From positions 1 to 36,506 of the forward strand of contig CALXTJ010000009.1 in NCBI GenBank assembly GCA_944391375.1: a stretch of 36,506 nucleotides of DNA. The letters run 5' to 3'. The translations under genes and the position numbers were made by a program. This document shows, piece after piece, positions 1 to 36,490 of the stretch (its first letter is position 1; each line of letters starts with the position of its first letter). Source of the stretch: an uncultured Alphaproteobacteria bacterium. Its GTDB lineage: Bacteria; Pseudomonadota; Alphaproteobacteria; RF32; CAG-239. The notes beneath the pieces are model-generated. The model was not told the origin of the DNA. It searched no databases and was given only the letters and a program-made list of their open reading frames with translations.

Positions 1-78
1 CTTTAAAATTGCAAAAAAAAAAAACGGTTTAGAATTTCGTTTAAACACCTTTTTCTTATACTTTTTCGGAGGTTTTAG
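1..78 (+). promoter_or_regulatory. Pilin-cassette leader, copy 1 (cut at left edge)
   Basis: This is the first of four related leaders. It opens at the window edge with CTTTAAAATTGC (1-12), then a run of 12 A (13-24), then an inverted repeat with arms AAACG (22-26, partly inside the A run) and CGTTT (38-42), a pyrimidine-rich stretch and a GGAGG ribosome-binding site at 68-72 ahead of the ATG at 79. It matches copy 2 at 77 of 78 positions; the only difference is the base just before the ATG. The TTATCCACC box of the other copies would lie outside the window. Promoter elements cannot be assigned with certainty: TTGCAA at 9-14 and TAGAAT at 30-35 are possible -35/-10 boxes, but their spacing of 15 is short. 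Confidence 0.8.
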
Positions 79-690
79 ATGAAATTTAATGAATTTGGTA
101 GATCAATGATTGAAATGCTCGGCGTTCTGGCGATAATTGGGGTACTTTCTGTCGGGGCTATTGCCGGTTATTCCAAGGCCATGATGAAGTATAAGCTCAA
201 CAAACAAACCGAACAGTTGAGCTGGCTTTTAAATGTTATGTATCAATATAAATCACAGTGGATATTTGATGATAGATTTGTATCACTGCTTCCATACTAT
301 AAAAAACTAGGTTTGATCCCAGAAAATATGCTTAAAGATAGCAATTATTATTTATATGATGTATTTGGCCAGAAAATAGATATGACGACAAATGGTTGTA
401 ATCCGGTTTGTACCGGACTAATATTGCATTACTATATAAACAATGGCTCCCTGGAATTATGTAGTAATGTTATTAAAACTATATCTAATTTCCACGAAGT
501 TATATATGGATTAGGTATGGGGCAATCGGAGGAGGATGAATCTTCCTATCAGACTTATTTTCTGGGAGATAAATATTGCACGACAAAATGCCTTAAGAGC
601 TTATCATTACAACAAATTGATGAGATGTGCCGTACTTGTGAAGGTACTGACAGCTGTTCTATTTATGCAACATATCAAATAAATGACTAA
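79..690 (+). CDS. Type IV pilin-like (pseudopilin-like) protein, variable cassette 1
   Basis: The 203-residue protein has a seven-residue leader (MKFNEFG), then R-S-M-I-E. If prepilin peptidase cuts after Gly7, Glu12 falls at the +5 position diagnostic of type IV pilins and pseudopilins; the +1 residue is Arg rather than the usual Phe or Met. A hydrophobic helix (about residues 14-31) follows, then the conserved KAMMKYKLN segment. After about residue 43 the sequence diverges sharply from its two paralogues in the window, but keeps a DVFG motif near residue 94 and a Cys-rich C-terminus (YC, KCLK, MC, TC, SC). No assembly ATPase, platform protein or prepilin peptidase is in view, so any machinery is encoded elsewhere. 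Whether it builds a pilus or is a minor or secretion pseudopilin is unknown. The start is fixed by GGAGG six bases upstream. Confidence 0.85.
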   Translation: MKFNEFGRSMIEMLGVLAIIGVLSVGAIAGYSKAMMKYKLNKQTEQLSWLLNVMYQYKSQWIFDDRFVSLLPYYKKLGLIPENMLKDSNYYLYDVFGQKIDMTTNGCNPVCTGLILHYYINNGSLELCSNVIKTISNFHEVIYGLGMGQSEEDESSYQTYFLGDKYCTTKCLKSLSLQQIDEMCRTCEGTDSCSIYATYQIND

Positions 691-766
691 ATTACCTTAC
701 AAAAAATTTCATATGTAAATCTTATAATACTAAAAATATCTTCAAGAAGGTTTTTATAATTTCCAC

Positions 767-862
767 TTTTATCCACCGGGATAACTTTAAAATTGCAAAA
801 AAAAAAAACGGTTTAGAATTTCGTTTAAACACCTTTTTCTTATACTTTTTCGGAGGTTTTAA
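767..862 (+). promoter_or_regulatory. Pilin-cassette leader, copy 2
   Basis: This copy is complete. TTTTATCCACC begins at 767, and 18 bases later CTTTAAAATTGC (785-796) starts the core, followed by 12 A (797-808), the AAACG/CGTTT dyad, a pyrimidine-rich stretch and GGAGG (852-856). The 78 bases before the ATG differ from copy 1 at one position only. The upstream gap 691-766 holds no recognisable gene; it has a weak short hairpin, CTTCAAGAAG, before a T run, which is not a convincing terminator. Confidence 0.8.
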
Positions 863-1489
863 ATGAAATTTTATCAATCTGGTAGATCAATGGTTGAGAT
901 GCTGGGCGTTTTGGCAATTATTGGCGTTTTATCGGTTGGAGCTATTGCCGGCTACTCCAAAGCCATGATGAAATATAAGCTCAATCGCCAGACCGAGCAA
1001 ATCGGTAGCATTTTAGACTATGTCACCATCAATTCCGATAAATTTAATCATGATTTTTCTATAAATTTCGGTATTCTATTACAAAAATTGGGCGTCATTC
1101 CGCTTGAAATGATAGTTGAAAATTCGGCTGAGACCGGCTATGTAAAAGATGTTTTCGGAAACATTGTATGGCCAACTCTTAATAATGACGGCGATATCTA
1201 CTACCGTCTACAAATATATGTTGGCAAAGGACCTCGCGAAATATGCGTAAATCTATACCAAATAGCCAAATTACGTTCGGCAGGTTTATGGCAAACTATG
1301 TTTTCAAAAGGTAACGGTCAGGGAGATATACAATATGCCAACAGAGTATACGGAGATGCCTATTGTACGGAAAATGTTACCTGTCTTAAAGATTTAACAT
1401 TATCAAAAATGGAAGAATTGTGTTCAACTTGTGATGATTCTGTAAGTAGTTGTATATTTACTATATTATGGAATAAAATAAAAGGTTAA
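863..1489 (+). CDS. Type IV pilin-like protein, variable cassette 2
   Basis: This 208-residue paralogue of the preceding gene lies behind a near-identical leader. The leader peptide is MKFYQSG, followed by R-S-M-V-E, giving Glu at +5 for cleavage after Gly7. The N-terminal 43 residues are almost the same as in cassette 1, although many codons differ synonymously. The remainder is largely unrelated in sequence but keeps the same framework: a KLGVIP-like segment near residue 75, DVFG near residue 95, and a C-terminal Cys cluster (YC, TCLKDL, LCSTC, SC). The likely fate is the inner membrane, then a pilus-like filament. It has its own strong terminator. The cassette could equally be a minor pilin or a type II secretion pseudopilin, and no partner gene in the window decides between these. 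Confidence 0.85.
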   Translation: MKFYQSGRSMVEMLGVLAIIGVLSVGAIAGYSKAMMKYKLNRQTEQIGSILDYVTINSDKFNHDFSINFGILLQKLGVIPLEMIVENSAETGYVKDVFGNIVWPTLNNDGDIYYRLQIYVGKGPREICVNLYQIAKLRSAGLWQTMFSKGNGQGDIQYANRVYGDAYCTENVTCLKDLTLSKMEELCSTCDDSVSSCIFTILWNKIKG

Positions 1490-1503
1490 AACCAAACTTA
1501 CTG

Positions 1504-1532
1504 AAAAATCCTCCCTTTCGGGAGGATTTTTT
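1504..1532. terminator. Bidirectional terminator between pilin cassette 2 and ssb
   Basis: A 12-bp perfect stem (AAAAATCCTCCC, 1504-1515, with its complement at 1520-1531) closes a TTTC loop. Pairing A/T flanks make it usable in both directions, so it probably ends pilin cassette 2 on the plus strand and ssb on the minus strand. Confidence 0.85.
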
Positions 1533-1552
1533 AATCATTACTCACTTTGTGG

Positions 1553-2020
1553 CTAAAACGGAATATCATCGTCCAAAGTTGATGAACTGTCCGCCGGAGC
1601 TGAACTGTCCCAACCGGAAGATGCCGAACCTCCGAACACATCCTCTACCGAAGATGCTCCCTCACCGCTGCGGCTGTCCAACATCATCAGAGTACCGTTA
1701 AAGTTTTGCAAAACCACTTCCGTGGTATAACGCTCTTGGCCGCTGTTGTCCTCCCATTTACGAGTCTGCAACTGACCTTCAATGTATACCTTGGAGCCTT
1801 TATGCAAATATCTTTCCGCCGTTTCGGCTAATTGCGGGTTGAAAATCACCACTCTGTGCCACTCCGTCCTTTCCTTCCAATCTCCGGAAAGTTTGTCTTT
1901 CCATCTATCCGAAGTTGCTACGGTTAAATTAACAATCTTGGTGCCGCTTTGGGTGTTACTGACACGCGGATCAGCTCCCAAGTTGCCAACTAAAATTACT
2001 TTATTAACGCTTCCTGCCAT
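1553..2020 (-). CDS. ssb: Single-stranded DNA-binding protein
   Basis: The 155-residue protein binds single-stranded DNA in replication, recombination and repair. The OB fold covers about residues 4-112, with family hallmarks [14 protein letters not shown], the TEWHRVV strand and YVEGQL-like [12 protein letters not shown] low-complexity Ser/Gly/Asp linker follows, and the tail ends DDDIPF, the conserved acidic tip that docks partner proteins. The length is typical for bacterial SSB. It stands alone on the minus strand, with its own promoter and a shared terminator. In many alphaproteobacteria ssb lies near uvrA, as here, although two unrelated genes intervene. Confidence 0.97.
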
Positions 2021-2055
2021 GATTATTTCCTATGTTATACAGTTTAACTTTTTTT

Positions 2056-2084
2056 ACTATAAAGACTTTTTACAAAATAGCCAA
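2056..2084 (-). promoter_or_regulatory. Likely sigma-70 promoter of ssb
   Basis: On the minus strand TTGGCT (2079-2084) and TATAGT (2056-2061) are separated by 17 bp and lie about 36 bases upstream of the ssb start. I saw no alphaproteobacterial LexA box (GTTC-N7-GTTC) nearby. Confidence 0.6.
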
Positions 2085-2116
2085 CTTTAAACCACATTTT
2101 TACACATCTATTGCAT

Positions 2117-2145
2117 TTGACATCCTACCTTAATTATGTTATATT
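2117..2145 (+). promoter_or_regulatory. Sigma-70 promoter of the small lipoprotein gene
   Basis: A perfect TTGACA (2117-2122) and TATATT (2140-2145) are 17 bp apart. The predicted transcript starts near 2152, leaving only a short leader before the start codon at 2170 or 2179. Confidence 0.7.
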
Positions 2146-2169
2146 TTCGGCAAATTAAATTATTTATAT

Positions 2170-2610
2170 ATGATATATATGAAAAAGTTTTGCTTATTGG
2201 CAGCAGCTGTCTGCGTACTGCTGTGTGCTTCGTGTTCTCCCGGAGAACCTATTCCTCACCAAAGTTATGAAGACTTAGATTTTGAGGGGCCGAATATCAG
2301 CGACCTGCTCTTTGATTACTTTGCCGATTACTACACCGATACTTATGCTATCGCCGACGGTAAAGTGGAAATCAGAGCCGAATACGAATTTTTCAGTTCC
2401 TGGGGATGTATATCTTACTACCTGGCTATTGAACAATCAGTCAGCGAAAGCGTCAAAGATGCTACTTTTCAAAATCTGACCGACAATCCGCAACATTTTG
2501 CCGATTTGGCGGAAAGCTATTTTGAAGACCGCTATGACTGGCTTGAAATGAAAATCCGTTACTTAAAATTTACACGGATTGACAATTTACAAGAAACGGC
2601 TCAACCATGA
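2170..2610 (+). CDS. Small predicted lipoprotein of unknown function
   Basis: The protein has 146 residues from the ATG at 2170, or 143 if translation begins at the in-frame ATG at 2179, which gives a cleaner N-terminus (MKKFCLL). Neither start has a clear Shine-Dalgarno sequence. The N-terminus is a charged, hydrophobic signal ending LLCASCS, so Cys22 (counted from 2170) could be lipidated, although Cys at -3 is not the usual lipobox residue. The mature part is acidic and rich in aromatic residues (DLLFDYFADYY). I do not recognise a family. The gene is monocistronic: it has its own strong promoter and a terminator that overlaps its stop codon. Confidence 0.7.
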   Translation: MIYMKKFCLLAAAVCVLLCASCSPGEPIPHQSYEDLDFEGPNISDLLFDYFADYYTDTYAIADGKVEIRAEYEFFSSWGCISYYLAIEQSVSESVKDATFQNLTDNPQHFADLAESYFEDRYDWLEMKIRYLKFTRIDNLQETAQP

Positions 2611-2625
2611 GCCGTTTCTTTATTT
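2593..2625. terminator. Terminator between lipoprotein and binding-protein genes
   Basis: An 11-bp perfect stem (GAAACGGCTCA, 2593-2603; complement 2608-2618) has an ACCA loop and is followed by TTTATTT. It includes the stop codon of the plus-strand lipoprotein gene and reaches the stop of the minus-strand gene. It is strongest in the plus direction. Confidence 0.8.
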
Positions 2626-3726
2626 AATAACTACATATTCTCCGTCTTTGTACTGATAAAACTCATAATGCAACGGATTGTCTCCGCCGCCGTTGTTGAA
2701 TAAAAACTTTTCCGCCAAATCTCCGTTTTCTTCTTTTTGTATCCAAGATGATAAATCATCATAGGCAAAGCTGTCGGCCGAATTTACCATATCTTCCCAA
2801 GTTTTGACCGCCGAATAACCGTAAATGTTAAGCCCTTGCATATCTATACCTTGTAATCGCAACTTGACTAAAGTTTCCGCAAATTCCGGATTATCATCCA
2901 TGGTCGGTAAAGCCACAAAGTAAACCGTATCCAAATAATCCTGAGCATATTCAAATAAAGAATCGCCTAAAGCATATTTGCTGGTTACTATGATTATATC
3001 TTTCTTTTGTTGTTTTAGCTCTCTTATCATTTTGGCGGTTTTTTTCGGACTGCCGGCTATGGCCACAACCTCTGCCCCTGAGGCAATAATCTTTTCGGCC
3101 TCGGCTTCTAAATTATCCGTTGTAAAAGCATAACTCTCCACTAATGATGCCTTGCCGTATTTTCTGAATTCATCATATACCAAATTAAAGGCCGCCGTGG
3201 TGTTTTTATTATCCGAATCTATTAAAACCGCTACTTTTTTACCGGCAAAATGCGTGTTATAAAACCTAAAAAAATCCCGACCGGCCTGTTCCTTAAAGCC
3301 TCCCATTCTAATCATGCCTTTGTGCTTTTGTAAAGCCTGATTATAACTTAAATGAATGGGCACAATTTGTAAAATTTTGGCTTTGGAATAAATTTGCGAA
3401 ATTTGCTCAAACCCGTTTGAACAATACGGCCCGATAACTACCGACGGTTTATTTTCCAAACCCACTGCCAACATTTGTGCCGTAGAAATGGCTAAATTGT
3501 CACTGCAAACATCGTCAATGCTGAGTAATTTGACTTTTTCACCTTTTACTCCACCGTTGCGATTTATTTCATCCACCGCCACCTGTGCCCCGTAGACCAG
3601 CTCATCACCCCACATCTTGTATTCGCCGGTTTTGGGTGCAATCACGGCTATCCGGACCTCGGCCCTACACATATGCGGCAGAAAATAACAACCTACCAGT
3701 ATGGCCGATACAATTTGTCTAATCAT
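2620..3726 (-). CDS. Periplasmic type-I solute-binding protein, LivJ/LivK-like
   Basis: The 368-residue protein has an N-terminal signal peptide (about residues 1-22, ending near MCRA). Its fold signature is that of ABC-transporter receptors for branched-chain or other amino acids: IAVIAPKTGEYKMWGDE at the start of lobe 1, a GA-VAVDEINRNGGVKG segment, VVIGPYCSNG at the ligand cleft, and KVAVLIDSDNKN at the second lobe. A typical LivJ binds ligand in the periplasm and hands it to LivHMGF. No permease or ATPase gene is adjacent, so this copy is an orphan that may serve a distant transporter or act as a sensor. The ligand cannot be deduced. Confidence 0.85.
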   Translation of the reverse strand: MIRQIVSAILVGCYFLPHMCRAEVRIAVIAPKTGEYKMWGDELVYGAQVAVDEINRNGGVKGEKVKLLSIDDVCSDNLAISTAQMLAVGLENKPSVVIGPYCSNGFEQISQIYSKAKILQIVPIHLSYNQALQKHKGMIRMGGFKEQAGRDFFRFYNTHFAGKKVAVLIDSDNKNTTAAFNLVYDEFRKYGKASLVESYAFTTDNLEAEAEKIIASGAEVVAIAGSPKKTAKMIRELKQQKKDIIIVTSKYALGDSLFEYAQDYLDTVYFVALPTMDDNPEFAETLVKLRLQGIDMQGLNIYGYSAVKTWEDMVNSADSFAYDDLSSWIQKEENGDLAEKFLFNNGGGDNPLHYEFYQYKDGEYVVIK

Positions 3727-3823
3727 TCCACGACTCTGTTTGTTTAAATACTTCCCGAAAACTACTACAATCTTCCCTAAAAATCAATACTTTTATTTTG
3801 CTCTTTTGGACAAATATTTAAAC

Positions 3824-3851
3824 TTGCAATTATTTTACTTTTTCCTATTGT
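3824..3851 (+). promoter_or_regulatory. Possible uvrA promoter
   Basis: TTGCAA (3824-3829) and TATTGT (3846-3851) are 16 bp apart and about 47 bases upstream of the uvrA ATG. The match is moderate. No GTTC-N7-GTTC SOS box was seen in the divergent gap 3727-3897. Confidence 0.35.
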
Positions 3852-3897
3852 GTTACGATGGCTTTTTATCTATATTACCTCAATGCGGAGATGTAAT

Positions 3898-6714
3898 ATG
3901 GCTGAAAATAAATTTATTGAAATTAAAGGGGCTCGTGAACATAACCTCAAAAATATTGATATAAATATTCCCAAAGACAAATTAACCGTTATTACCGGAT
4001 TGTCGGGTTCGGGCAAATCGTCTTTGGCTTTTGATACCATCTATGCCGAAGGACAGAGGCGATATGTGGAAAGTTTGTCCTCATATGCCCGCCAGTTTTT
4101 GGATTTAATGAAAAAGCCCGATGTGGACTCTATTGAAGGCTTGTCTCCGGCCATATCCATTGAACAAAAAACCACTTCCCATAATCCGCGTTCCACCGTC
4201 GGTACGGTTACCGAAATTTATGATTATATGCGGCTTTTGTGGGCCAGAGCCGGCACCCCGTACTCTCCGGCTACCGGACTTCCCATTGAACAACAAACCG
4301 TATCGCAGATGGTAGATAAAATTTTAGAATACCCCGAATCTACCAAAATTATTCTTCTGGCCCCTATTGCCAGAGGCAAAAAAGGTGAGTTTAAAAAAGA
4401 GTTTGAGTCTTTACAAAAACAAGGTTATCAACGGCTAAACATTGACGGTCAAATTTATAACATTGAAGAGCTTCCGAACTTAAACAAAAATCAAAAGCAC
4501 GATATTGAAGTTGTGGTTGATCGTTTGGTCGTAAAACCCGGAATTGCCGAAAGATTAAGCCAATCCATAGAAACCGTCTTAAAGTTAAGCGACGGACTGT
4601 TGTTTGTGGATTTTCCAAGCGGCGGCGAACGCAAAATATTTTCTTCCAAATTTGCCTGTCCGGTTTCCGGCTTTACCATTGAAGAAATTGAACCGCGTTT
4701 ATTTTCGTTCAACAACCCTTACGGAGCCTGCCCCCATTGCGACGGTATCGGGGCAAGGCTGTATATGGACCCTAACTTAATAGTACCTAATGAAAACTTG
4801 ACCATAGATCAAGGAGCCATTGCTCCGTGGTTTGGCTTCAGAACTTCATTTTATGCCCAAACCATTAACTCTTTGTGCGATTATTTGCAAGTATCTACCA
4901 AAACTCCTTGGAAAGATTTACCGGAACGCGCCAAACAAATTATTTTATACGGCTCGGGCAACGAATCCATTCCGATGTATTACTCTCGCTTTGTTACCGA
5001 TAAGCCGTTTGAAGGAGTTATTCCTAATATGGAACGGCGTTTTTTGGAAACAGATTCCATGGCGGCTCGGGAAGAACTTTCGCATTATCAGTCTGCCGCT
5101 CCTTGCGAATTTTGCAAAGGTAAACGCTTAAAACCGGAGGCTCTCGCCGTTAAAATCTGCGGCTTGGATATTATGGAAGTTTCCGATATGTCGGTTAAAA
5201 AAGCTTTGGACTGGTTTTCCAAAGTTGAAGAGCAACTTTCAACGCAAAAACGGGAAATTGCCCACAAAATCTTGAAAGAAATTATTGAGCGACTGCACTT
5301 TTTAAACAATGTCGGCTTGGATTATTTGACTTTGTCACGGCAATCGGGCTCTTTATCGGGCGGAGAATCACAACGAATCCGTTTAGCTTCGCAAATCGGC
5401 TCGGGATTGACCGGAGTTATGTATGTGTTAGATGAACCGTCTATCGGCTTGCATCAACGCGATAACGATAAACTGTTGGAAACCTTAACCAGACTGCGTG
5501 ATATCGGTAATACGGTAATTGTGGTGGAGCACGACGAAGATGCCATAAGAGCCGCCGACTTTTTGGTAGATATGGGCCCTCTTGCCGGCGATGAGGGCGG
5601 AAAAGTTACCGCCTGCGGTACCGTGGAAGAAGTCTTAAAAAATAAAAACAGTTTAACCGCTAAATATCTAAACGGCGAAAAACAAATTGTCGTACCCCAA
5701 GAAAGACGCAAAGGCAACGGTAAATTTTTGGAGCTTGACGGGGTTAGAACCAACAATCTTAAAGGGGTTAATTTTAAACTGCCGCTCGGAACTTTAACCT
5801 GTGTTACCGGCGTTTCAGGCAGCGGAAAATCTTCTTTGGTTTTGGAAACTTTATATAAAGCCTTAAACAAAGAAATAAACGGTTCACGCGAACCGGCCGG
5901 ATTTTATGATACAATTAAAGGTGTGGAAAAGATTGATAAAATTATTGATATTGACCAATCACCAATCGGCAGAACGCCGCGTTCCAATCCGGCAACTTAT
6001 ACCGGGCTGTTTACCTACATCCGCGACTGGTTTGCCGCTCTGCCCGAAGCTAAAGCTCGGGGTTATTCGGCGGGACGATTTTCTTTTAATGTGGCAGGCG
6101 GTCGTTGCGAGGCTTGCAAAGGCGACGGCGTTACCAAAATTGAAATGCACTTTTTACCCGATGTTTATGTAGAGTGCGAAGTTTGTAAAGGTAAACGCTT
6201 TAATCGGGAAACTTTGGAAGTTAAATATAAAGATAAATCCATCGCCGATGTTTTGGATATGACGGTTGATGAGGCTTACAAGTTTTTTGAAGCAATTCCG
6301 GCCATTAAAAATCGTCTTAACTTGCTGCGGCAGGTGGGGCTGGGCTACATTAAACTCGGACAACCGGCTACTACCCTCTCCGGCGGTGAAGCTCAAAGAA
6401 TTAAACTTTCCAAAGAGCTGTCCAAAAAAGCTACCGGCAAGACTTTGTATATTTTAGATGAACCGACGACCGGACTTCATTTTGAAGATATCAATAAGCT
6501 CTTAAAAGTTTTGCATACTTTTGTGGAGCAAGGTAACTCCGTACTGGTAATTGAGCATAACTTAGATGTAATAAAAACCGCCGATTATATTGTGGATATC
6601 GGCCCCGAAGGCGGAGACGGCGGCGGAAAAATTATTGCTCAGGGTACGCCTGAAGAAATTGTTAAGATTAAAGGTTCTTATACCGGAAAATACTTAAAAG
6701 GAAAACTTAAATGA
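3898..6714 (+). CDS. uvrA: Excinuclease ABC subunit A
   Basis: UvrA recognises bulky DNA lesions and loads UvrB in nucleotide excision repair. I place the start at 3898 (938 residues, normal for the family) because GGAG lies just upstream and family homology begins at MAENKF; an in-frame extension back to 3850 looks non-coding. Two ABC ATPase halves are visible: Walker [10 protein letters not shown] near residues 34-42 and GVSGSGKSS near 640; signatures [10 protein letters not shown] and [10 protein letters not shown]; Walker [11 protein letters not shown] and [10 protein letters not shown]. Zinc-binding CxxC pairs are present ([16 protein letters not shown] with CEVCKGKRF). The stop overlaps the next gene by 4 bp, so the two are co-translated. 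Confidence 0.98.
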
Positions 6715-7811
6715 AGCACTTTTATCTGTTCCGACACGGTGAAACTCACTTTAACGCTTTAGGCCGCTTTCAAGGGCAAACCTTAAATGCCGGCTTGAAC
6801 GAAACCGGTAAAAAACAAGCTCAAAATCTGGCTGAACATCTCCAAGATAAAGGAATTGAGCTCATTGTTTCAAGCCCCCTAAAAAGAGCTTTGGAAACAG
6901 CCCAGATTGTTGCCGAACATCTTGGTGTGCCCGTGGAAATTGATGAGCACTTCATTGAAGGAAACTTTGGTGATGTGGAAGGCAAAACCAAAGAAGAAAT
7001 TACCGAAGATGAAATTGCCACCTTCAAAGAATGGATTAAACTTGATGAACAATTTTTAGACATCCATTTTAAAAACGGTGAAAGTAAACGGCAGATTTTA
7101 AATCGGGCCTTCACCGGCTTAAATAAGTTACTCAAACTGCCTTATAATGTTATAGGCGTTGCCTCGCACAGTGCGGTGTTACGCGTAATTTTACTGCATT
7201 TGGGCAAAAAACAACACGATATACCCAACGGAGCGGTTTTTCATGTTATTTATGATAACGGAAAATTTTACTTGGCAGAGCCTGAAAAATTTTTACTGCT
7301 TTCCTGTTGTGCTCCCTGCTCTTGTGCCGTAATCAAAACTTTAGCCGAGCAGAAAAAAGATTTTGCCGTAGTTTTTTATAATCCTAACATCAGGCCTTTT
7401 AAAGAATACGAAAAACGACGCAATGAAAACCGGAGAGTATGCGAAATTTACAATGTACCTTTTATTGAGTTGGAATATGACAACGAGCGTTGGTGCAATA
7501 TCATCAAAGGACTGGAAAATGAGCCGGAAAGAGGCAAAAGATGCAGTTTGTGTTTTGAAATGCGGCTAAAAAGAGTTATGGAATACGCCAAGCAAAACGG
7601 ATATACCTCGGTTGCCTCGGTACTCGGAGTTTCCAGATACAAAGACCTTAATCAGGTAAACGCCGCCGCCGATAAAGCCATGCGAGAGACCAAGTGTCCT
7701 TACTTAGAAATTGAAGGCCGCAAAAACGGTATGCAGGAGCTGAGAGCCGCTCTTATTAAGGAACTTAATCTTTACAATCAAACTTACTGCGGCTGTAAGC
7801 CCCGAAATTAG
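6711..7811 (+). CDS. Fusion: histidine phosphatase + epoxyqueuosine reductase QueH
   Basis: The single 366-residue frame joins two enzymes. Residues 1 to about 190 are a phosphoglycerate-mutase-type histidine phosphatase: catalytic RHG at 8-10, a GNFGDVEG segment, and the second catalytic His in VASHSAVLR. Residues about 195-366 are a QueH (DUF208) domain: CCAPC at 199-203, [18 protein letters not shown] at 278-281, and YCGC at 359-362. The Cys-Cys plus CxxC set matches the 4Fe-4S-binding cysteines of QueH, which reduces epoxyqueuosine to queuosine in tRNA anticodons. Both domains retain their key residues and there is no frameshift between them. ATGA overlap with uvrA indicates coupling. The phosphatase substrate is unknown; no other queuosine gene is in the window. 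Confidence 0.9.
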
Positions 7812-7849
7812 AAATATGTAATATTTTTGCAAGTATTGTAAAAAAATGC

Positions 7850-7880
7850 TTGACTTAGAGCTAACTCCAAGCATTACACT
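7850..7880 (+). promoter_or_regulatory. MerR-family (AdhR/NmlR-like) promoter and operator
   Basis: TTGACT (7850-7855) and TACACT (7875-7880) are separated by a 19-bp spacer, the overlong spacing typical of MerR-activated promoters. The spacer carries the dyad CTTAGAG-CTAA-CTCCAAG (7854-7871), with one mismatch between arms, close to the operators of the AdhR/NmlR subgroup that sense aldehydes and related electrophiles. It sits about 58 bases upstream of the metallophosphoesterase start and should drive the five-gene run up to 12035. No MerR-type regulator gene is in the window. The assignment of subgroup rests on remembered operator consensus. Confidence 0.75.
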
Positions 7881-7937
7881 CCTATCAGAATCGTAAAATA
7901 CTATTGTAATTTATCTTTTTAAATAGGAGTTTTGCTT

Positions 7938-9050
7938 ATGTATACCTGTGCCGTTACCACCTCTTTTTTAGGCTGTTTGGCTACGCTTTTTTTGTATTTT
8001 CGTTATATCTTATTTGCCTCAATCGGGCTCCCTTATAAAATAATTTGTCTTATTTTATTTTTGCTTATAGGATGTATACCCTTGTTTGTGGAATATTCTT
8101 TTGAAGATATCTTGGGCAAATTCTATCCCTTCTATCGCTACACTCTTTACTTTATCTATATTGGTGCGGTCATTTTATTAACTCTAACCGTTATCAGAGA
8201 TGCTCTTTGGTTTATTTGCTCTAAGTTTGATTTATGCCCCGCAATTTCTTGGCATATGCCGCTTAAAGCCAACCTTTATACCGTTATGATAGCTCTTTTG
8301 TTTACCGTATGGGCTTTGTATGAGGGTACTAAAACCCCGAAGATTAACACCGTTACTTTATCTTCGCCTAAAATCAGCCAAGATATGACCGTTGCTGTTT
8401 TAAGCGATTTACATATTCATCGGGTTATCTGCCCGCAAAAGATTAAAAATATCATTGCCAAAACCAATGCCCAAAATCCGGATATTATCTTGCTTGACGG
8501 TGATATTATTGATGATAACCCGCAAAAAGTTGCGGCAATTACCGCTTTGCTAAAGGATTTAAAAGCCAAATACGGCATTTACTTTGTAACCGGTAATCAT
8601 GAGTTTTATGCCGGCTATCAAGCTACCGTTAACGCTTTGCAAAATTTAGGTTTTACCCTGCTTGAAAACAATTCGGCAGTTATTAACAATATCTATCTTG
8701 CCGGTATTCCCGATACTTTTACCGGAGAGGCTTACGGTAAAAACGCCGATATAAAACAAGCTTTTAATAAAGCTCAAAACCATCAATACAAAATTTTAAT
8801 GTCGCACACCCCGACCGATTTTAAAGACAGCAATGTTTTTGATTTGGAAATTTCCGGTCATACACACGGCGGTCAAATTTTTCCTTTCCATATTTTTACA
8901 AAACTGCATAATAAGTATTTATCAGGATTGTATAAAATGGATAACAATGCTTATATTTATGTAACTAACGGTGCCGGTCAATGGGGTCCGCAAATGCGTT
9001 TTCTGGCACCTTCGGAAATTACGATTATTAAATTAACTTCAAACAAATAA
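7938..9050 (+). CDS. Membrane-anchored metallophosphoesterase (YkuE/YaeI-like)
   Basis: The 370-residue protein starts at the ATG at 7938, which is eight bases after AGGAG; an in-frame TTG at 7932 is too close to that site. The N-terminal 130 residues contain about four hydrophobic segments. The calcineurin-like catalytic domain follows: D157-x-H159 in LSDLH, GD at 188-189 in LLDGDIID, GNHE at 219-222, H290 in MSHTP, and GHTHGG at 307-312. All metal ligands are present. Relatives such as YkuE and YaeI act on lipid or nucleotide phosphoesters at the membrane. It is first in an apparent electrophile-stress operon, an unusual partner for the redox genes downstream. The substrate is not deducible. 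Confidence 0.85.
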   Translation: MYTCAVTTSFLGCLATLFLYFRYILFASIGLPYKIICLILFLLIGCIPLFVEYSFEDILGKFYPFYRYTLYFIYIGAVILLTLTVIRDALWFICSKFDLCPAISWHMPLKANLYTVMIALLFTVWALYEGTKTPKINTVTLSSPKISQDMTVAVLSDLHIHRVICPQKIKNIIAKTNAQNPDIILLDGDIIDDNPQKVAAITALLKDLKAKYGIYFVTGNHEFYAGYQATVNALQNLGFTLLENNSAVINNIYLAGIPDTFTGEAYGKNADIKQAFNKAQNHQYKILMSHTPTDFKDSNVFDLEISGHTHGGQIFPFHIFTKLHNKYLSGLYKMDNNAYIYVTNGAGQWGPQMRFLAPSEITIIKLTSNK

Positions 9051-9061
9051 GGAGAAAAATT

Positions 9062-10225
9062 ATGAGTTTTAACTTTTATGTTCCGGTACATATTTTATTC
9101 GGAAACGGTGAATTAAACAATTTAAACAAACAGCCCCTTCCCGGCAAAAAAGCCTTGTTGGTTATTTCCAACGGAAAATCGGCTCGTGTCAACGGTTATT
9201 TAGACCGCACCATTGAGCAGCTTACCAAAGCCGGAGCTCAATATGTTTTGTTTGATAAAGTTGAAGCCAACCCCTTAAAGTCCACGGTTATGGACGGAGC
9301 ACAAGTTGCCCGTGACAATGCTTGCGACTTTGTTGTGGCTCTGGGCGGAGGCAGTGTTATGGATGCGTCCAAAGCTATTGCCGCCATGGCCGTAAATGAT
9401 GGCGATTTATGGGATTATATTCAGTTCGGCAACGGCAAAAAACTGCCCATGAAAAACAAACCCTTACCTTTGGTTACCATTACCACTACCGCCGGTACCG
9501 GCTCGGAGGCCGACAGCGGTGCGGTTATTACCAATCCCGAAACTAAAGAAAAAACCGCATTCTTTGCTGATTTTCCGGTTTTATCCATTGTTGATCCGGA
9601 GTTAATGACTACCGTTCCTCAAAAGATGACGGCTTACCAAGGTTTTGACGCTCTGTTCCACAGCATTGAAGCCTATATTTCCAAACAGGCTAATTTAATG
9701 AGTGATATGTTTGCCGTTACCGCCATTGAAAATGTCGGCAAATATTTGGCTCGGGCCGTTAATAACGGTAACGATTTGGAAGCTCGTGAACATATGGCCT
9801 TTGCCAATACTATGTCCGGCTTTGTTATGTGTGTCGGAACCTGCACCAGTGAGCACTCTTTGGAGCACGCCTTATCGGCTTATCATCAAGAGCTTCCCCA
9901 CGGTGCCGGATTGATTATGATTTCCAAAGCTTACTATACACACTTTATCAATCAGGGTGTCGCTCCCGAAAGATTTATCAAAATGGCTCAGCTTTTAGGC
10001 TTTAACGATGCCAAAAAGCCTCAAGACTTTATTACGGCTCTGGTTAATTTGCAAAAAGCCTGCGGCGTTGATGAATTAAAAATGTCCGATTACGGCATAA
10101 ATGAAAGCGAATTTACCGAAATGGCCGTTAATGCCCAAGACTGCATGAGCTTTTTGTTTAACTTTGACCGTATTAAATTAAGCATTGAAGACTGTGTAAG
10201 TATTTATCATAACTCTTATAAATAA
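9062..10225 (+). CDS. Iron-containing alcohol dehydrogenase
   Basis: The 387-residue, full-length group III Fe-ADH interconverts alcohols and aldehydes with NAD(P)H in the cytoplasm. GGGS at 95-98 and TTAGTGSE at 142-149 form the nucleotide site. Metal ligands align as D196 and H200 (GFDALFH), H269 (SLEHAL) and H280 (LPHG). AAGGAG lies eight bases before the ATG, and the gap to the upstream gene is only 11 bases. In this operon context the likely role is reduction of toxic aldehydes. The substrate cannot be read from sequence; butanol-type and lactaldehyde-type enzymes share these motifs. Confidence 0.93.
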   Translation: MSFNFYVPVHILFGNGELNNLNKQPLPGKKALLVISNGKSARVNGYLDRTIEQLTKAGAQYVLFDKVEANPLKSTVMDGAQVARDNACDFVVALGGGSVMDASKAIAAMAVNDGDLWDYIQFGNGKKLPMKNKPLPLVTITTTAGTGSEADSGAVITNPETKEKTAFFADFPVLSIVDPELMTTVPQKMTAYQGFDALFHSIEAYISKQANLMSDMFAVTAIENVGKYLARAVNNGNDLEAREHMAFANTMSGFVMCVGTCTSEHSLEHALSAYHQELPHGAGLIMISKAYYTHFINQGVAPERFIKMAQLLGFNDAKKPQDFITALVNLQKACGVDELKMSDYGINESEFTEMAVNAQDCMSFLFNFDRIKLSIEDCVSIYHNSYK

Positions 10226-10235
10226 GGAGAATATA

Positions 10236-10706
10236 ATGCTTTATCGTATTGTTTTAGCTATTACAATCGTATTTACAACAACTTTAACAGTAAAGGCTCA
10301 AGAAATGAAAACAGCTCCGATTGATACCGTTTTTGCCCAAGGCGAACCTAACCCTTACGGCAAATATTTTACCGGACAGACTTATCTTACCATGTTAAGC
10401 CCCAACGATACCGTTTTTAACGCTCCGGTTGGCAATGTTACCTTTGAGCCTAAAGCTCGTACCAATTGGCACAAGCACACCGGCGGACAGATTTTGCTGG
10501 TACTGGCCGGTGAAGGGCGTTACCAAGAACGCGGCAAAGAAGTGCAAGTGTTGCATAAAGGCGATGTTGTTCGTATTGCCCCCGATGTTGAGCATTGGCA
10601 CGGAGCGGCTCCGGAAAGCTGGTTTACCCATATTTCTTTGGAAACCAATGTGCCCAACAATCAAGCTATTTGGTTAGAGCCGGTAACCGATGAGGAATAT
10701 AAATAA
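10236..10706 (+). CDS. Exported cupin-domain protein
   Basis: The 156-residue protein begins with a Sec signal peptide (about residues 1-21, ending VKAQ). A single cupin barrel follows. Motif 1 is NWHKHTGGQ with H79, H81 and Q85 as likely metal ligands; motif 2 is IAPDVEHWHGA with H120 or H122. It resembles small cupins related to manganese-dependent hydroxynitrile lyases that are often linked to carboxymuconolactone-decarboxylase-like genes, as here. It follows the dehydrogenase by 10 bases and overlaps the next gene by one base (TAATG). The signal peptide is unusual for this type and suggests periplasmic action. The reaction is unknown. Confidence 0.85.
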   Translation: MLYRIVLAITIVFTTTLTVKAQEMKTAPIDTVFAQGEPNPYGKYFTGQTYLTMLSPNDTVFNAPVGNVTFEPKARTNWHKHTGGQILLVLAGEGRYQERGKEVQVLHKGDVVRIAPDVEHWHGAAPESWFTHISLETNVPNNQAIWLEPVTDEEYK

Positions 10707-11491
10707 TGAACAAACTTCTGTTAGGGGCGGCGATAATAATTTGTATTATCGTCGCCGGAGGAGCATTATATCTTAACAAAGGAGATAATATGCAAAATTT
10801 TGCAAAAACCGATGCCGATTTTACCGCCATGTGGAATCATTTTTTGGAAAATGATGTTAAGCCTCACGGTAATCTTGACACCCAAATGCGTTATTTAACC
10901 GTTTTAGCGGCCCATATTGCCACACAATCGGTTAATGAATACAAACTTATTTTGGCTCAAGCCTTAGATGATGAGGTTTCGCCGATTGCCGTTAAAGAAA
11001 TGCTTTATCAAACCGTACCTTATGCCGGTATGGCCAAAGCTTACGACTTTTTTAATGCCACCAACGAGGTAATGAGTGCCAAAGGCGTTAAAATACCATT
11101 GCCTTCTCAGGCGGTTACCACACCTGATAATCGGTTAGAAAAAGGTCTTGAAACACAATGTGCCATATTCGGCAAAGAGCAAATTTTAAGTATGCGTAAA
11201 AATGCCCCGGATGATTTGAAGCATATTCAAGACTATCTGTCGGCTAACTGTTTTGGGGATTATTACACTCGTGGCGGTTTGAATATTAAGCAAAGAGAAC
11301 TTATTACCTTTGCGGTATTAGTATCTATGGGCGGAGCCGATGCTCAGGCCAAGGCACACGCTCAGGCCAACATAAATGTCGGCAACGACCGTCAAGTTTT
11401 GTTAGATGTAATTTCGGGGCTCTTGCCCTATATCGGCTACCCGCGTTCACTTAACGGAATTGCGGCGGTTGATGCAGTTACAAAGGAGTAA
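10706..11491 (+). CDS. Carboxymuconolactone decarboxylase/AhpD-fold protein with N-terminal anchor
   Basis: The 261-residue protein has two CMD-type helical repeats, about residues 45-125 (YLTVLAAHIATQ) and 190-255 (KQRELITFAVLVSMGG). Neither has the CxxC of AhpD peroxidase, so a thiol-peroxidase role is doubtful. Residues 4-23 form a single hydrophobic segment, either an uncleaved anchor or a signal. A second in-frame ATG at 10790 (residue 29) is preceded by AAAGGAG with ideal spacing and would give a soluble 233-residue form. The first start is supported by one-base coupling to the cupin gene. A role in quinone or aldehyde detoxification is inferred from context. Confidence 0.85.
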   Translation: MNKLLLGAAIIICIIVAGGALYLNKGDNMQNFAKTDADFTAMWNHFLENDVKPHGNLDTQMRYLTVLAAHIATQSVNEYKLILAQALDDEVSPIAVKEMLYQTVPYAGMAKAYDFFNATNEVMSAKGVKIPLPSQAVTTPDNRLEKGLETQCAIFGKEQILSMRKNAPDDLKHIQDYLSANCFGDYYTRGGLNIKQRELITFAVLVSMGGADAQAKAHAQANINVGNDRQVLLDVISGLLPYIGYPRSLNGIAAVDAVTKE

Positions 11492-11495
11492 AATT

Positions 11496-12035
11496 ATGAG
11501 TAAAAAAGTTTTAGTTTTAGCGGCAAGTTTTCGTAAACACGGAAATTCCGATTTATTGTGTGATGAATTTATAAAAGGTGCTAAAGAAGCCGGACATGAA
11601 GTTGAAAAAATTTATCTTAATGATAAACACATCAACTTTTGTAAAGGCTGCGGAGTATGCAATAGTACTCACAAGTGCATTCAGCAAGATGATATGGCCG
11701 AAATTTTAGATAAAATGGTAAATGCCGATGTAATTGTTATGGCAACCCCTATTTATTTTTATGCCATGAACGGACAAATGAAAACTTTAATTGACCGTAC
11801 GGTACCAAGATATACCGAAATCAGCCATAAAGATTTTTATTTTATTTTGGCTTCTGCCGACGATAATAAAGCCAATCTTGAAAGAGCCTTAGAGGGTTTC
11901 AGAGGCTTTACCGAGGATTGCTTAAATGGAGCCAAAGAAAAAGGCATAATCTACGGTGTAGGAGCTTGGCAAATGGGAGAAATTAAAGGAACTCCGGCCA
12001 TGAAAGAGGCTTATACCATGGGCAAAGCCTGCTAA
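11496..12035 (+). CDS. Flavodoxin-fold NAD(P)H-dependent oxidoreductase, iron-sulfur flavoprotein-like
   Basis: The 179-residue protein starts at 11496, where AAAGGAG lies six to seven bases upstream; a longer frame back to 11460 would overlap the previous gene for no reason. The FMN-binding loop is ASFRKHGNSD near the N-terminus, and the family ATPIYFYAMNGQMKTLIDR segment follows. The cluster C-x2-C-x2-C-x5-C in FCKGCGVCNSTHKC matches the compact motif of iron-sulfur flavoproteins, although some relatives keep it without a cluster. It is the last gene of the MerR-type operon, before a strong terminator. Likely role: reduction of quinones or other electrophiles. Confidence 0.88.
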   Translation: MSKKVLVLAASFRKHGNSDLLCDEFIKGAKEAGHEVEKIYLNDKHINFCKGCGVCNSTHKCIQQDDMAEILDKMVNADVIVMATPIYFYAMNGQMKTLIDRTVPRYTEISHKDFYFILASADDNKANLERALEGFRGFTEDCLNGAKEKGIIYGVGAWQMGEIKGTPAMKEAYTMGKAC

Positions 12036-12056
12036 AATTTGTAAAATTTATGTCAG

Positions 12057-12090
12057 CACCCTCATTTTGCTAAAATGAGGGTGATTTTAT
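12057..12090 (+). terminator. Terminator of the electrophile-stress operon
   Basis: A 12-bp perfect stem (CACCCTCATTTT, 12057-12068; complement 12072-12083) has a three-base loop and is followed by ATTTTAT. It separates the operon from the third pilin leader, whose TTTTATCC box begins within the T tail. Confidence 0.85.
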
Positions 12091-12177
12091 CCACCGCTTT
12101 AACTTTAAAATTGCAAAAAAAAAACGGTTTAAGATTTCGTTTAAAGCCATTTTTACTAATTTTTTTGGAGGTTTTAG
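12085..12177 (+). promoter_or_regulatory. Pilin-cassette leader, copy 3
   Basis: TTTTATCCACC starts at 12085 and CTTTAAAATTGC at 12103, the same 18-base step as in copies 2 and 4. The A run is 10 long here (12115-12124) against 12 elsewhere. AAACG and TTCGTTTAAA are retained, while the sequence between and after them has drifted. GGAGG (12167-12171) precedes the ATG at 12178. Confidence 0.8.
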
Positions 12178-12804
12178 ATGAAATTTTATCAATATGGGCG
12201 TTCCATGGTGGAGATGCTCGGCGTTTTAGCCATAATCGGCGTGCTATCTGTGGGAGCTATTGCCGGATATTCCAAGGCCATGATGAAATATAAGCTCAAT
12301 AAATATAGTGAATCTATGACGTTGCTGTTGGCTAATGCTATACAACTTTCCAAACAAATTCCAACCGAACAAGCCACAATTAAACAATATCGTACTGAAC
12401 TACTACATAAACTCAATTTGTTGCCTGACGGATTTAAACTAGATGAAAATGACAATAGTTTCCTTATAGATGTGTTTGGTAATAATACACACTTCGCCGG
12501 CAGATCCGGATTCGGATACAATTGGGTATTGCATACCAGCTTAGCCAATAGCTCCAGCAGTTTTGAACAATGTCAGGTATTGTACCGTATCGGCAAAGAA
12601 TTTTCATCCGAACTTATAAAAATATACAGAGAAGAAGATTCTGCCGAAGACGGATATGCTTATCAGTCAATTTGGGGAGATAATGATTGTGCTTTAGGCA
12701 AAACTCCATGCTTAAAAGATTTGACTTTGAATGATATTTATAACAGATGTACCAATTCGCAACGAGCTAATACAACTTTTTCCGCTTCTTTCTGGTGGTG
12801 GTAA
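12178..12804 (+). CDS. Type IV pilin-like protein, variable cassette 3
   Basis: The 208-residue third family member lies more than 10 kb from the first two and directly behind the stress operon. Leader peptide MKFYQYG then R-S-M-V-E puts Glu at +5. The hydrophobic helix and KAMMKYKLN segment match the other two; divergence begins at about residue 41. DVFG recurs near residue 100, and the C-terminal region keeps DC, PCLKDLTL and RC, but the last Cys pair of cassettes 1 and 2 is missing and the protein ends in an aromatic run (SFWWW). The nucleotide sequence of the constant part carries many synonymous changes relative to the other copies. Confidence 0.85.
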   Translation: MKFYQYGRSMVEMLGVLAIIGVLSVGAIAGYSKAMMKYKLNKYSESMTLLLANAIQLSKQIPTEQATIKQYRTELLHKLNLLPDGFKLDENDNSFLIDVFGNNTHFAGRSGFGYNWVLHTSLANSSSSFEQCQVLYRIGKEFSSELIKIYREEDSAEDGYAYQSIWGDNDCALGKTPCLKDLTLNDIYNRCTNSQRANTTFSASFWWW

Positions 12805-33532: not shown

Positions 33533-33709
33533 ATCAATTCTCCTCAAGTTCATATATGTAATATATTAACACTTTGGTACTTTTTTGCAACTTTACATAC
33601 CGCTTTATAAATTTTTTTGTTGTATTTTTGGTTGGTAAAATATTTTTTTATTTGTTTTTTAATTTTATGTTTTTATATTTCTAGAGTATTTTTGTTGGGA
33701 GTTGTTATT

Positions 33710-35062
33710 TTGGATACCGCAAACATTAAACAAGCCGCTGATATTTTGTGGAATATGAACCCGCAAATTTTGGCTTCGGCAATTTTGGTTGTCAGTTACA
33801 TTATTTTATTTACCGAAAAACTTAATCGGGCTGTTGTAGCTTTAATCGGGGCCTCGGTTATGATTTTTACCGGAATTCTTACCCAGCAAACCGCTATTGC
33901 CGGTATTGATTTTAATACTATCGCCTTGCTTATCGGAATGATGATTATTGTCGGTATTGCCGAAAAATCCGGCTTATTCCAGTTTGCCGCTTTGTGGTCG
34001 GCCAAACTGGTTAAGGCTTCGCCGCGGGGAATTTTAATCATGCTGGCCGCAGTTACGGCATTTTTCTCGGCTTTTTTAGATAATGTAACTACCGTGCTGC
34101 TCATTGTGCCCGTTACTTTCCAGATTACCCGCAGCCTAAAAATCAATCCTTACCCCTACCTTATTTTGGAAATATTTGCTTCCAATATCGGCGGTACCGC
34201 TACCCTTATCGGCGATCCGCCCAATATTTTAATCGGTTCGGCTTTGGGACTTTCCTTTAACGATTTTGTGGTCAATTTGGCCCCTATCGTTATACTTAAC
34301 ATGCTTTTGCTGATTGCGGTTTTTGATTTTTTATTCGGCCGAAAATTGCAAACTTCCGATGAAAATAAAGCTCTGGTTATGCAAATTAACGAAAAAGATT
34401 GTATTACCGACTATAAATTGTTGGTAAAATCGCTTATCGTATTGGGACTGGTAATATGTGCCTTTATGGCTGCCGAGCATTTACATCAACAAAACGGCAC
34501 TATCGCCTTATGCGGAGCTGCTTTGCTGTTGTTGCTTTATACATTTAAAGATGAACATCAGCAAAGAGAACAAAAAGTTGAAGAAATATTCTCACTGGTG
34601 GACTGGACAACCATCTTCTTTTTCTGCGGATTGTTTTCCATTGTCTACGGTTTGGAAGAGGTGGACGTATTATCTATGCTTGGCGAAAAATTAACCGAAT
34701 TTACTCAAGGCAGCATACAAAAAGCCACTTTTTGGGTTTTGTGGATTTCGGCGTTTGTGTCAGCCGCCATTGATAATATTCCGTTTGTGGCTACCATGAT
34801 ACCCGTAATTAAATCCATGGAAGAATCCGTCGGTGGCAGAGAAGCTATGATGCCGGTGTGGTGGGCTTTATCGTTAGGGGCTTGTTTTGGCGGTAACGGC
34901 TCGTTGATTGCCGCCTCTGCCAATGTAATTGTGGCCGGACTTGCCCAACGCGAGGGACATCCTATAAGCTTTTTGCGATTTTTGTTATGGTCGCTTCCGG
35001 TTATGCTGATGACAATTATAGTGTCAAGTTTATGCTTATATTTAATGTATTTTATCAAATAG
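33710..35062 (+). CDS. ArsB/NhaD-superfamily permease, tandem copy A
   Basis: The protein has 450 residues from a TTG at 33710, placed eight bases after GGGAG. This start makes the N-terminus line up with copy B; the frame extends to 33617, but that part is T-rich and has no partner in copy B. About 11-12 membrane helices are present. The core stretch around FLDNVTTVLLIVP, NIGGTATLIGDPPNILIGS and a second DNIPFVATMIP re-entrant motif is that of the ion transporter superfamily containing ArsB, NhaD and SLC13 carriers. The substrate could be an anion or Na+/H+. No arsenic gene accompanies it. The gap 33554-33709 shows no certain promoter. Confidence 0.85.
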   Translation: MDTANIKQAADILWNMNPQILASAILVVSYIILFTEKLNRAVVALIGASVMIFTGILTQQTAIAGIDFNTIALLIGMMIIVGIAEKSGLFQFAALWSAKLVKASPRGILIMLAAVTAFFSAFLDNVTTVLLIVPVTFQITRSLKINPYPYLILEIFASNIGGTATLIGDPPNILIGSALGLSFNDFVVNLAPIVILNMLLLIAVFDFLFGRKLQTSDENKALVMQINEKDCITDYKLLVKSLIVLGLVICAFMAAEHLHQQNGTIALCGAALLLLLYTFKDEHQQREQKVEEIFSLVDWTTIFFFCGLFSIVYGLEEVDVLSMLGEKLTEFTQGSIQKATFWVLWISAFVSAAIDNIPFVATMIPVIKSMEESVGGREAMMPVWWALSLGACFGGNGSLIAASANVIVAGLAQREGHPISFLRFLLWSLPVMLMTIIVSSLCLYLMYFIK

Positions 35063-35071
35063 GAAAATGTG

Positions 35072-36390: not shown

Positions 36391-36490
36391 TTTTATCCAC
36401 CGCTTTAACTTTAAAATTGCAAAAAAAAAAAACGGCTAAAGAGTTCGTTTAAAGCTCATTTGTAAATAAATAGGTTAGAGGCGTTAGGGG
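36391..36490 (+). promoter_or_regulatory. Pilin-cassette leader, copy 4, with altered start region
   Basis: TTTTATCCACC at 36391, CTTTAAAATTGC at 36409-36420, 12 A (36421-36432), AAACG and TTCGTTTAAA are all retained. Beyond them the sequence has drifted. The GGAGG-TTTTAG-ATG block of the other copies corresponds here to GAGG-CGTTAG-GGG, so the expected start codon is GGG (36488-36490), followed by AAATTTTATC as in cassettes 2 and 3. The window ends 16 bases later, so it is unclear whether a gene, a decayed gene or a later start codon follows. Confidence 0.7.

Follow-up and report, generated by a model that had tools for sequence, protein, structure and literature searches.

The window analysed here, a stretch of 36,506 nucleotides that is contig C9 of the draft genome G000 (1,328,500 bases, 73 contigs, 97.1% complete) of an uncultured alphaproteobacterium, carries three genes, starting at positions 79, 863 and 12178, of a large family of type IV prepilins with a constant N-terminus and strongly divergent bodies. 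On balance, the family is probably a dispersed prepilin repertoire serving a single R64/TCP-like pilus machine, with bodies exchanged at fixed chromosomal sites. The repertoire, the fold of one body and the turnover of bodies between species are well supported; switching within a strain and a role in the pilus are inferred.

The 56-residue N-terminus of gene 79, searched against its own genome, gave 33 matches at E ≤ 1: 30 at 71-100% identity, taken here as the family, and three weak ones (50%, 30% and 31% identity). The 30 copies, the three window genes included, are spread over 21 contigs, and all were inspected: C64 is truncated at its 3' end and seven copies lack the 5' end, because the contigs break there. 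Over these copies, the identity of a 36-residue N-terminus averages 94% (minimum 86%), and that of the bodies 26% (median 24%, best pair 83%). Purifying selection on the N-terminus is strong (synonymous divergence dS, median 2.2; nonsynonymous divergence dN, median 0.07; crude Nei-Gojobori count). The original prediction described three genes with a common leader, a Glu at +5, a constant N-terminus and divergent bodies, which the open reading frames (ORFs) and the alignment bear out; it also expected a genome-wide repertoire in the tens made of dispersed genes, as the own-genome search found, and the contrary outcome that it named, only a few copies, did not occur.

The N-terminus alone was used to count the family in relatives. 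The congeners G001, G002 and G003 carry 52, 52 and 64 copies; G019, a genome of another genus, carries at least 150 (150 of 150 scored, from 180 candidates); further genomes carry 34 (G029), 18 (G006), 10 (G044), 7 (G042) and 6 (G013). Among 45 members of the taxonomic family outside the genus, 33 have 0-3 copies and 41 have 0-8. A survey of 89 genomes, scoring at most 36 matches in each, found a match at E ≤ 1e-6 in 53. The best 80 contig records of GTDB r220 come from metagenome-assembled uncultured Alphaproteobacteria or proteobacteria, and their stated sources are always animal (e.g. rumen, reticulum, colon and rectum of deer or yak). No description of such a pilin family was recognised in the top-ranked open-access literature (subscription journals were mostly not covered), and a search of these open-access papers for pilins of RF32, the presumed GTDB order of this alphaproteobacterial lineage, yielded none.

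The three window proteins share MKF...GRSM(V/I)EMLGVLAIIGVLSVGAIAGYSKAMMKYKLN, with a leader of 6 residues, Gly at -1 and Glu at +5. The motif GRSMVEMLGVLAIIGV with this Glu (residue 6 counting Gly) is invariant in 29 and in 42 aligned sequences, and Asp88, Cys122 and Cys178 (numbering of the mature gene 79 protein) are invariant across the 42. A leader ending in Gly, the Glu at +5 and a hydrophobic N-terminal helix are marks of type IV pilins, and the family has all three. Profile and sequence searches gave weak matches: Pfam N_methyl (PF07963) scored 15.6, 16.7 and 15.8 bits for the three window proteins against a cut-off of 21.2, all NCBIfam matches were below cut-off, and the best match among solved structures had an E of 0.28 (a fimbrial N-terminus). 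The AlphaFold model of the mature gene 79 protein (predicted local distance difference test, pLDDT, 91.8; helix 2-50) has a type IVb-like pilin fold close to PilS, TcpA and CofA, and the larger minor pilins TcpB and CofB score below these three; the size and fold of the one modelled body match those of main subunits, whereas the original prediction had suggested variable tips or minor pilins, a role that stays hypothetical. In type IVb pilins a disulfide closes the D-region, for which the invariant Cys122 and Cys178 are candidates, and the leader is longer than about 15 residues; the window genes have 6 residues, and longer leaders occur elsewhere in the family only with inserts. A single R64/TCP-like pilus operon was found (PAP_PilO, TcpQ, secretin and ATPase genes). 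The machinery genes, and the fold and size of the one modelled body, are like those of the PilS, TcpA and CofA systems, unlike which the family has dozens of scattered paralogues, a 6-residue or palindrome-extended leader and an Arg at +1.

The chromosomal sites of the family are conserved between species, and most of the bodies they hold are not orthologous. In 31 of 38 flank tests (a flank gene at least 60% identical within 3.5 kb) a G002 pilin was found at the same place and in the same orientation, and 21 copies of G000 have a readable site-matched partner there. Bodies were compared between 29 copies of G000 and 47 of G002, the G002 stretches having been taken around its pilin copies. In 15 of the 21 the site partner is not the best match: body identity is 0.22-0.41, near that of random pairs, between flanks about 92% identical. 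Several bodies match better elsewhere: that of gene 863 (0.52 at L205:1730 of G002, 0.31 at its own site), that of C4:38106m (0.47 at another G002 site, 0.27 at its own) and that of C19:6190 (0.51 at L197; its two flanks point to sites with 0.41 and 0.24). In some of 20 pairs aligned as DNA, homology continues without a gap from the upstream flank across the promoter into the N-terminal codons, and in others it is patchy or truncated by contig ends; window gene 12178 and L197, for example, are homologous from -888 to +140 at 87.5% identity. In the non-orthologous pairs homology ends by +113 to +150, and in 10 of them it resumes downstream, 22-80 bp past the stop codon in eight and at -3 and +182 in the other two, while three orthologous control pairs remain aligned across most of the body.

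Possible signs of recombination are also found around the copies. Chromosome order between G000 and G002 is broken in 4 of 11 intervals holding a pilin, compared with 3 of 124 others (Fisher p 0.0008); one of the three pilin-free breaks depends on the same 82-amino-acid (aa) ORF as one of the pilin-interval breaks. The break at window 7808-7922 has no pilin in G000 and pilins near both ends in G002. The 5' untranslated regions (UTRs) are more alike within species (identity 0.879 in G000, 0.868 in G002) than between 19 site-matched pairs (0.766), and each species has its own typical -10-like hexamer (17 of 17 copies vs 42 of 42). By these comparisons the promoter-UTR modules evolve in concert, and a changed sigma factor could be the sole cause of the hexamer difference. 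Among body pairs with an identity of at least 0.5, the leader type, as labelled by us, differs in 9 of 11, a count that omits four rows with a truncated leader or belonging to two Gly-rich pilins.

The constant part of the genes, which the original prediction had placed in the leader and the N-terminus, does include both and begins further upstream. About 80 conserved bases precede the window genes: CTTTAAAATTGC, an A-tract, CGGTTTA(G)AAT, the UTR and a Shine-Dalgarno sequence. Window 785-865 is 99% identical to 1-81, and 1-81 gives 43 own-genome matches at E ≤ 10, 26 of them at E ≤ 1.2e-9. The A-tract module was seen in 17 of the 30 copies (15 complete, 2 clipped by a contig end); the other 13 have the UTR only (1), a structured RNA described below, R2 (3: C11:10199, C6:20582 and C10:13384m, where it replaces the module), neither (1, C8:21582m), a different UTR (1, C62) or a truncated 5' end (7). 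The core of the module occurs at 40 or more places in each of the three congeners and at none in G019. TTGCAA and TA(G/A/T)(A/G)AT read as candidate promoter boxes with the tract in their spacer. Runs of at least 10 A's were counted in 414,745 bases of G000, 569,004 of G002 and 194,301 of G019. In G000, 23 of 26 runs are pilin modules (15 with pilin N-terminal codons within 450 nt downstream, 7 at contig ends with the core, and one variant at window 36421) and three are something else; in G002 all 45 are modules, 44 followed by a pilin and the last with the core; in the bases examined of G019 there was none. Run lengths of 9, 10 and 11 are rare in G000 (11, 2 and 3), with a peak at 12 (15 in G000, 35 in G002).

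In G019, 25 of 27 inspected copies could be aligned to an upstream structured RNA, 13 to R1 and 12 to R2, and both RNAs close with a terminator-like hairpin (examples in stretches L216-L225 are L219:392-548 and L222:16455-16611). R1 shows strong covariation: 96.5% of cells are paired, 13 pairs differ on both sides, and none of 500 shuffles attains either this count or the score. For R2, with 98.7% paired, covariation is fair: its 4 pairs with changes on both sides are equalled or exceeded in 138 of 500 shuffles, its covariation score in none. R1 was found in 18 and R2 in 19 of 20 family genomes chosen for the search, and both also precede other genes: 24 loci inspected by eye gave an ORF in 20 cases, with 5 pilins among them and, by appearance, also lipoproteins, a barrel protein or glycosyltransferases. 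Rfam gave nothing over threshold in the seven sources first searched, and Rfam 15 nothing but tRNA in three G019 stretches; a hit to sRNA-Xcc1 that overlaps one R2 copy stays below threshold (34.7 bits against a gathering threshold of 53; E 0.026).

We propose that the shared front end combines a promoter, which contains an A-tract in most copies where it can be read, a leader that the prepilin peptidase should remove and an N-terminal helix that packs the subunits, so any expressed copy should be compatible with the one machine and yet present a globular surface of its own. The chromosomal sites would act as sockets whose body can be replaced by, or relocated from, other members of the family. 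Recombination anchored in the shared 5' region would drive this exchange; the same process may homogenise the promoter-UTR modules within a species and occasionally rearrange the chromosome at these sites. Copies would be expressed one or few at a time, each promoter being switched separately as its A-tract, which separates the -35-like from the -10-like box, changes length by slippage, and the pressure may be escape from phages or host immunity, or receptor choice. Separate slippery promoters of the Vlp type are the choice mechanism that we favour, although it is unproven. A more specific picture is put forward tentatively, and we think it rather doubtful as a whole: an undescribed system of fixed sockets, each holding a constant module of promoter, leader and helix and a slippery A-tract switch of its own; one-sided homologous recombination, anchored in the 5' module and completed close to the stop codon by an illegitimate joint, perhaps using DNA that the same pili import; and a sister genus with two new classes of structured attenuator RNA, in place of the switch, before at least 150 pilin genes.

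Several observations weigh against exchange and switching. The 21 site-matched copies represent 18 sites, because tandem neighbours share a partner, and in six of the 21 the partner is the best body match (identity 0.55-0.99: C11:10199, C8:21582m, C10:13384m, C62, C23 and C19:5246); in G001 and G003, from partial DNA, 4 and 5 copies are usable and 2 of each are conserved. The N-terminal codons show no concerted evolution (identity 0.80 and 0.77 within species, 0.76 between site-matched copies) and therefore do not demonstrate recent copying of the whole front end. One of the four breaks in pilin intervals depends on the 82-aa ORF, and the search of the own-genome copies for a shared 3' element found only a tandem neighbour's module, leaving a two-crossover exchange without an obvious second anchor. 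Positive selection was not seen on close bodies (finite dN/dS 0.06-0.26, crude Nei-Gojobori count), and the pilus operon has a Bundlin-like protein of its own, a possible main subunit. As for slippage, the total of A-runs of at least 10 is not above that expected by simple extrapolation from shorter runs (expected/seen: 28/26 in G000, 42/45 in G002, 24/0 in G019), only the length peak and the placement being striking; the tract, mostly 12 long, fits a fixed spacer as well; a sigma-70 scan (spacing 16-18) does not report the boxes, TTGCAA and TAGAAT being 15 bp apart with 12 A's; the window carries a MutS gene (matched by five MutS domains in Pfam), so slippage should be lower; and a homopolymer T-tract at a Mycoplasma vpma promoter is reported to be without a role in variation (PMC2268961).

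In a rival reading, less probable than exchange with a single machine, the A-tract is a promoter element of constant length, all copies are expressed together and their diversity builds mixed filaments. Tracts of 12 are more frequent than any other length in each of the four species of the genus examined, one common promoter suggests one regulon, and G019, with the largest repertoire, showed no A-run of 10 or more in the bases examined and has R1 or R2 before 25 of the 27 copies inspected, which is compatible with common control. The module tracts do vary in length, one in G003 having 9 A's and one at a contig end of G000 having 19; a slippery tract would be expected to vary in this way, a weak argument against constancy.

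It is unlikely that every copy is a fixed minor pilin with a lasting role (priming, tip adhesion, uptake) in a family that merely diverges fast. The stable orthologues named in the original prediction as the contrary outcome hold for six of the 21 site-matched copies, including the Gly-rich C11:10199 and C8:21582m, and C10:13384m, and the body of C6:27542m is kept in G001 and G003 at about 0.6; they fail for the other 15, with bodies near the random level beside closely similar flanks and several better matches elsewhere, and the copy number ranges from 0 to at least 150 within the taxonomic family. One conserved copy stands apart: C62 (stretch L192) is 99% identical to G002 in its body and 94.9% in its DNA, much closer than the other aligned sites, and its 5-kb contig is a possible case of recent transfer or mis-binning.

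The least probable reading is a selfish or mobile gene family that spreads via terminators and intergenic sites and benefits the cell little. In its favour are the palindromic elements in leaders and the unit C6:20582, which lies between two copies of an intrinsic terminator (L182:5232-6237) that is single in G002 by alignment (L201:16160-16208). Against it, the N-terminus is under strong purifying selection, the sites are conserved across species, flanking direct repeats are not general, and Pfam scans of 20 window proteins (43 window ORFs have at least 100 aa) showed no transposase or recombinase domain, no genome-wide search aimed at recombinases having been made. As a general insertion scar, direct repeats are not supported: G002 has 3 in 47 copies compared with 3 in the control, and the 8 of 25 in G000 (control 0) comprise 7 contig-end artefacts and a tandem neighbour's module, which leaves C6:20582, detected by alignment, as the single genuine case.

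Many copies have modular leaders of 25-94 residues. Insert A measures about 105 bp and insert B about 165 bp, and both have strong own-genome matches only in pilin leaders or contig-end leader fragments; in G002, A plus B in tandem give a leader of 86 residues. Three folded inserts pair end to end as palindromes, and in five genomes the fold z is below -3 in 30 of 49 long leaders compared with 2 of 47 same-length controls from the same genes. In-frame leader palindromes lie at L181:6067-6192 (copy C19:6190), in L182 (C6:27542m) and in L196 and L203 of G002. The Rickettsia palindromic elements (PMC10969869) are likewise in-frame palindromic insertions (about 100-190 bp) in coding genes of an alphaproteobacterium; A and B differ from them, as there described, in not being spread over unrelated genes, and the palindromes in pilin leaders sit where the prepilin peptidase would remove them.

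To our knowledge, known systems of pilin variation use one expression locus or one invertible cluster. In Neisseria pilE/pilS, a constant N-terminus and a variable body are combined by homologous recombination between silent cassettes and one expression locus; the present family shares the constant N-terminus, the variable body and, putatively, homologous recombination, and differs in having whole genes, mostly with their own promoter module where the 5' region is readable, and no single expression locus. Silent promoterless cassettes of that type are ruled out for the copies with a readable 5' region, 17 of the 30 having their own module. A PilV shufflon is ruled out as well, because the copies are dispersed over 21 contigs as whole reading frames except at contig ends, with no invertible segments at one locus. 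With the R64/IncI shufflon of PilV (on which see PMC5430464 and PMC9045228) the family has in common a constant front, a variable exposed part and an R64-like machine, and the differences are whole dispersed genes and a fold like that of a main subunit. The Vlp family consists of lipoproteins with a conserved promoter and secretion signal and a divergent surface body. The pilin genes resemble it in this anatomy and in the homopolymer tract, which stands at a fixed place in the same 17 copies, in the spacer of the putative -35 and -10 boxes that the sigma-70 scan leaves unreported. Switching by slippage in the promoter spacer is demonstrated for the Vlp lipoproteins of Mycoplasma hyorhinis (PMC2268961) and is proposed here for pilins.

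Small genomes (1.3-1.6 Mb) contain 30 to at least 150 alternative pilin genes at conserved sites whose content turns over. They offer a way to test how a single pilus machine deals with dozens of subunits, how scattered genes remain alike at one end and divergent at the other, and which pressure (phages, host immunity or receptors) drives this in a little-studied animal-associated lineage.

Table 1 Prepilin genes and 5' modules in the window (positions in nucleotides).
Feature	Position	Strand	Description
Prepilin gene 1	79..690	+	203 aa; leader MKFNEF; N-terminus constant up to about nt 205, body variable beyond
Prepilin gene 2	863..1489	+	208 aa; body in a clade with copies on contigs C4, C35 and C64
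Prepilin gene 3	12178..12804	+	208 aa; synteny breakpoint between G000 and G002
5' module of gene 79	1..78	+	UTR and Shine-Dalgarno sequence, with the boxes of the next row
Boxes in gene 79 module	9-14; 13-24; 30-35	+	TTGCAA (-35-like); A-tract of 12; TAGAAT (-10-like)
5' module of gene 863	769..862	+	TTATCCACCG (769-778), A-tract of 12 (797-808), TAGAAT (814-819)
5' module of gene 12178	12103..12177	+	A-tract of 10 and TAAGAT
5' module of a further copy, truncated by contig end	36409..36453	+	A-tract of 12 (36421-36432)

A fourth leader had been placed near 36391 in the original prediction; the element there is the promoter/5'-UTR module listed last in Table 1, 89% identical to window 1-45, and the contig stops before the pilin codons are reached. 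The bodies of the three window genes differ except for a motif and the Cys positions; the predicted Cys framework stands, and the predicted DVFG becomes D-(x)-F-(G/N), DVFG alone not being diagnostic as it is present too in ORF 1553-2020, whose product we read as SSB-like. Elsewhere in the window, a single ORF (6711-7811) has a histidine-phosphatase domain and a QueH domain and looks like an unusual fusion, and a tandem pair of CitMHS-family transporter genes (33617-36385) lies directly before the truncated pilin module.

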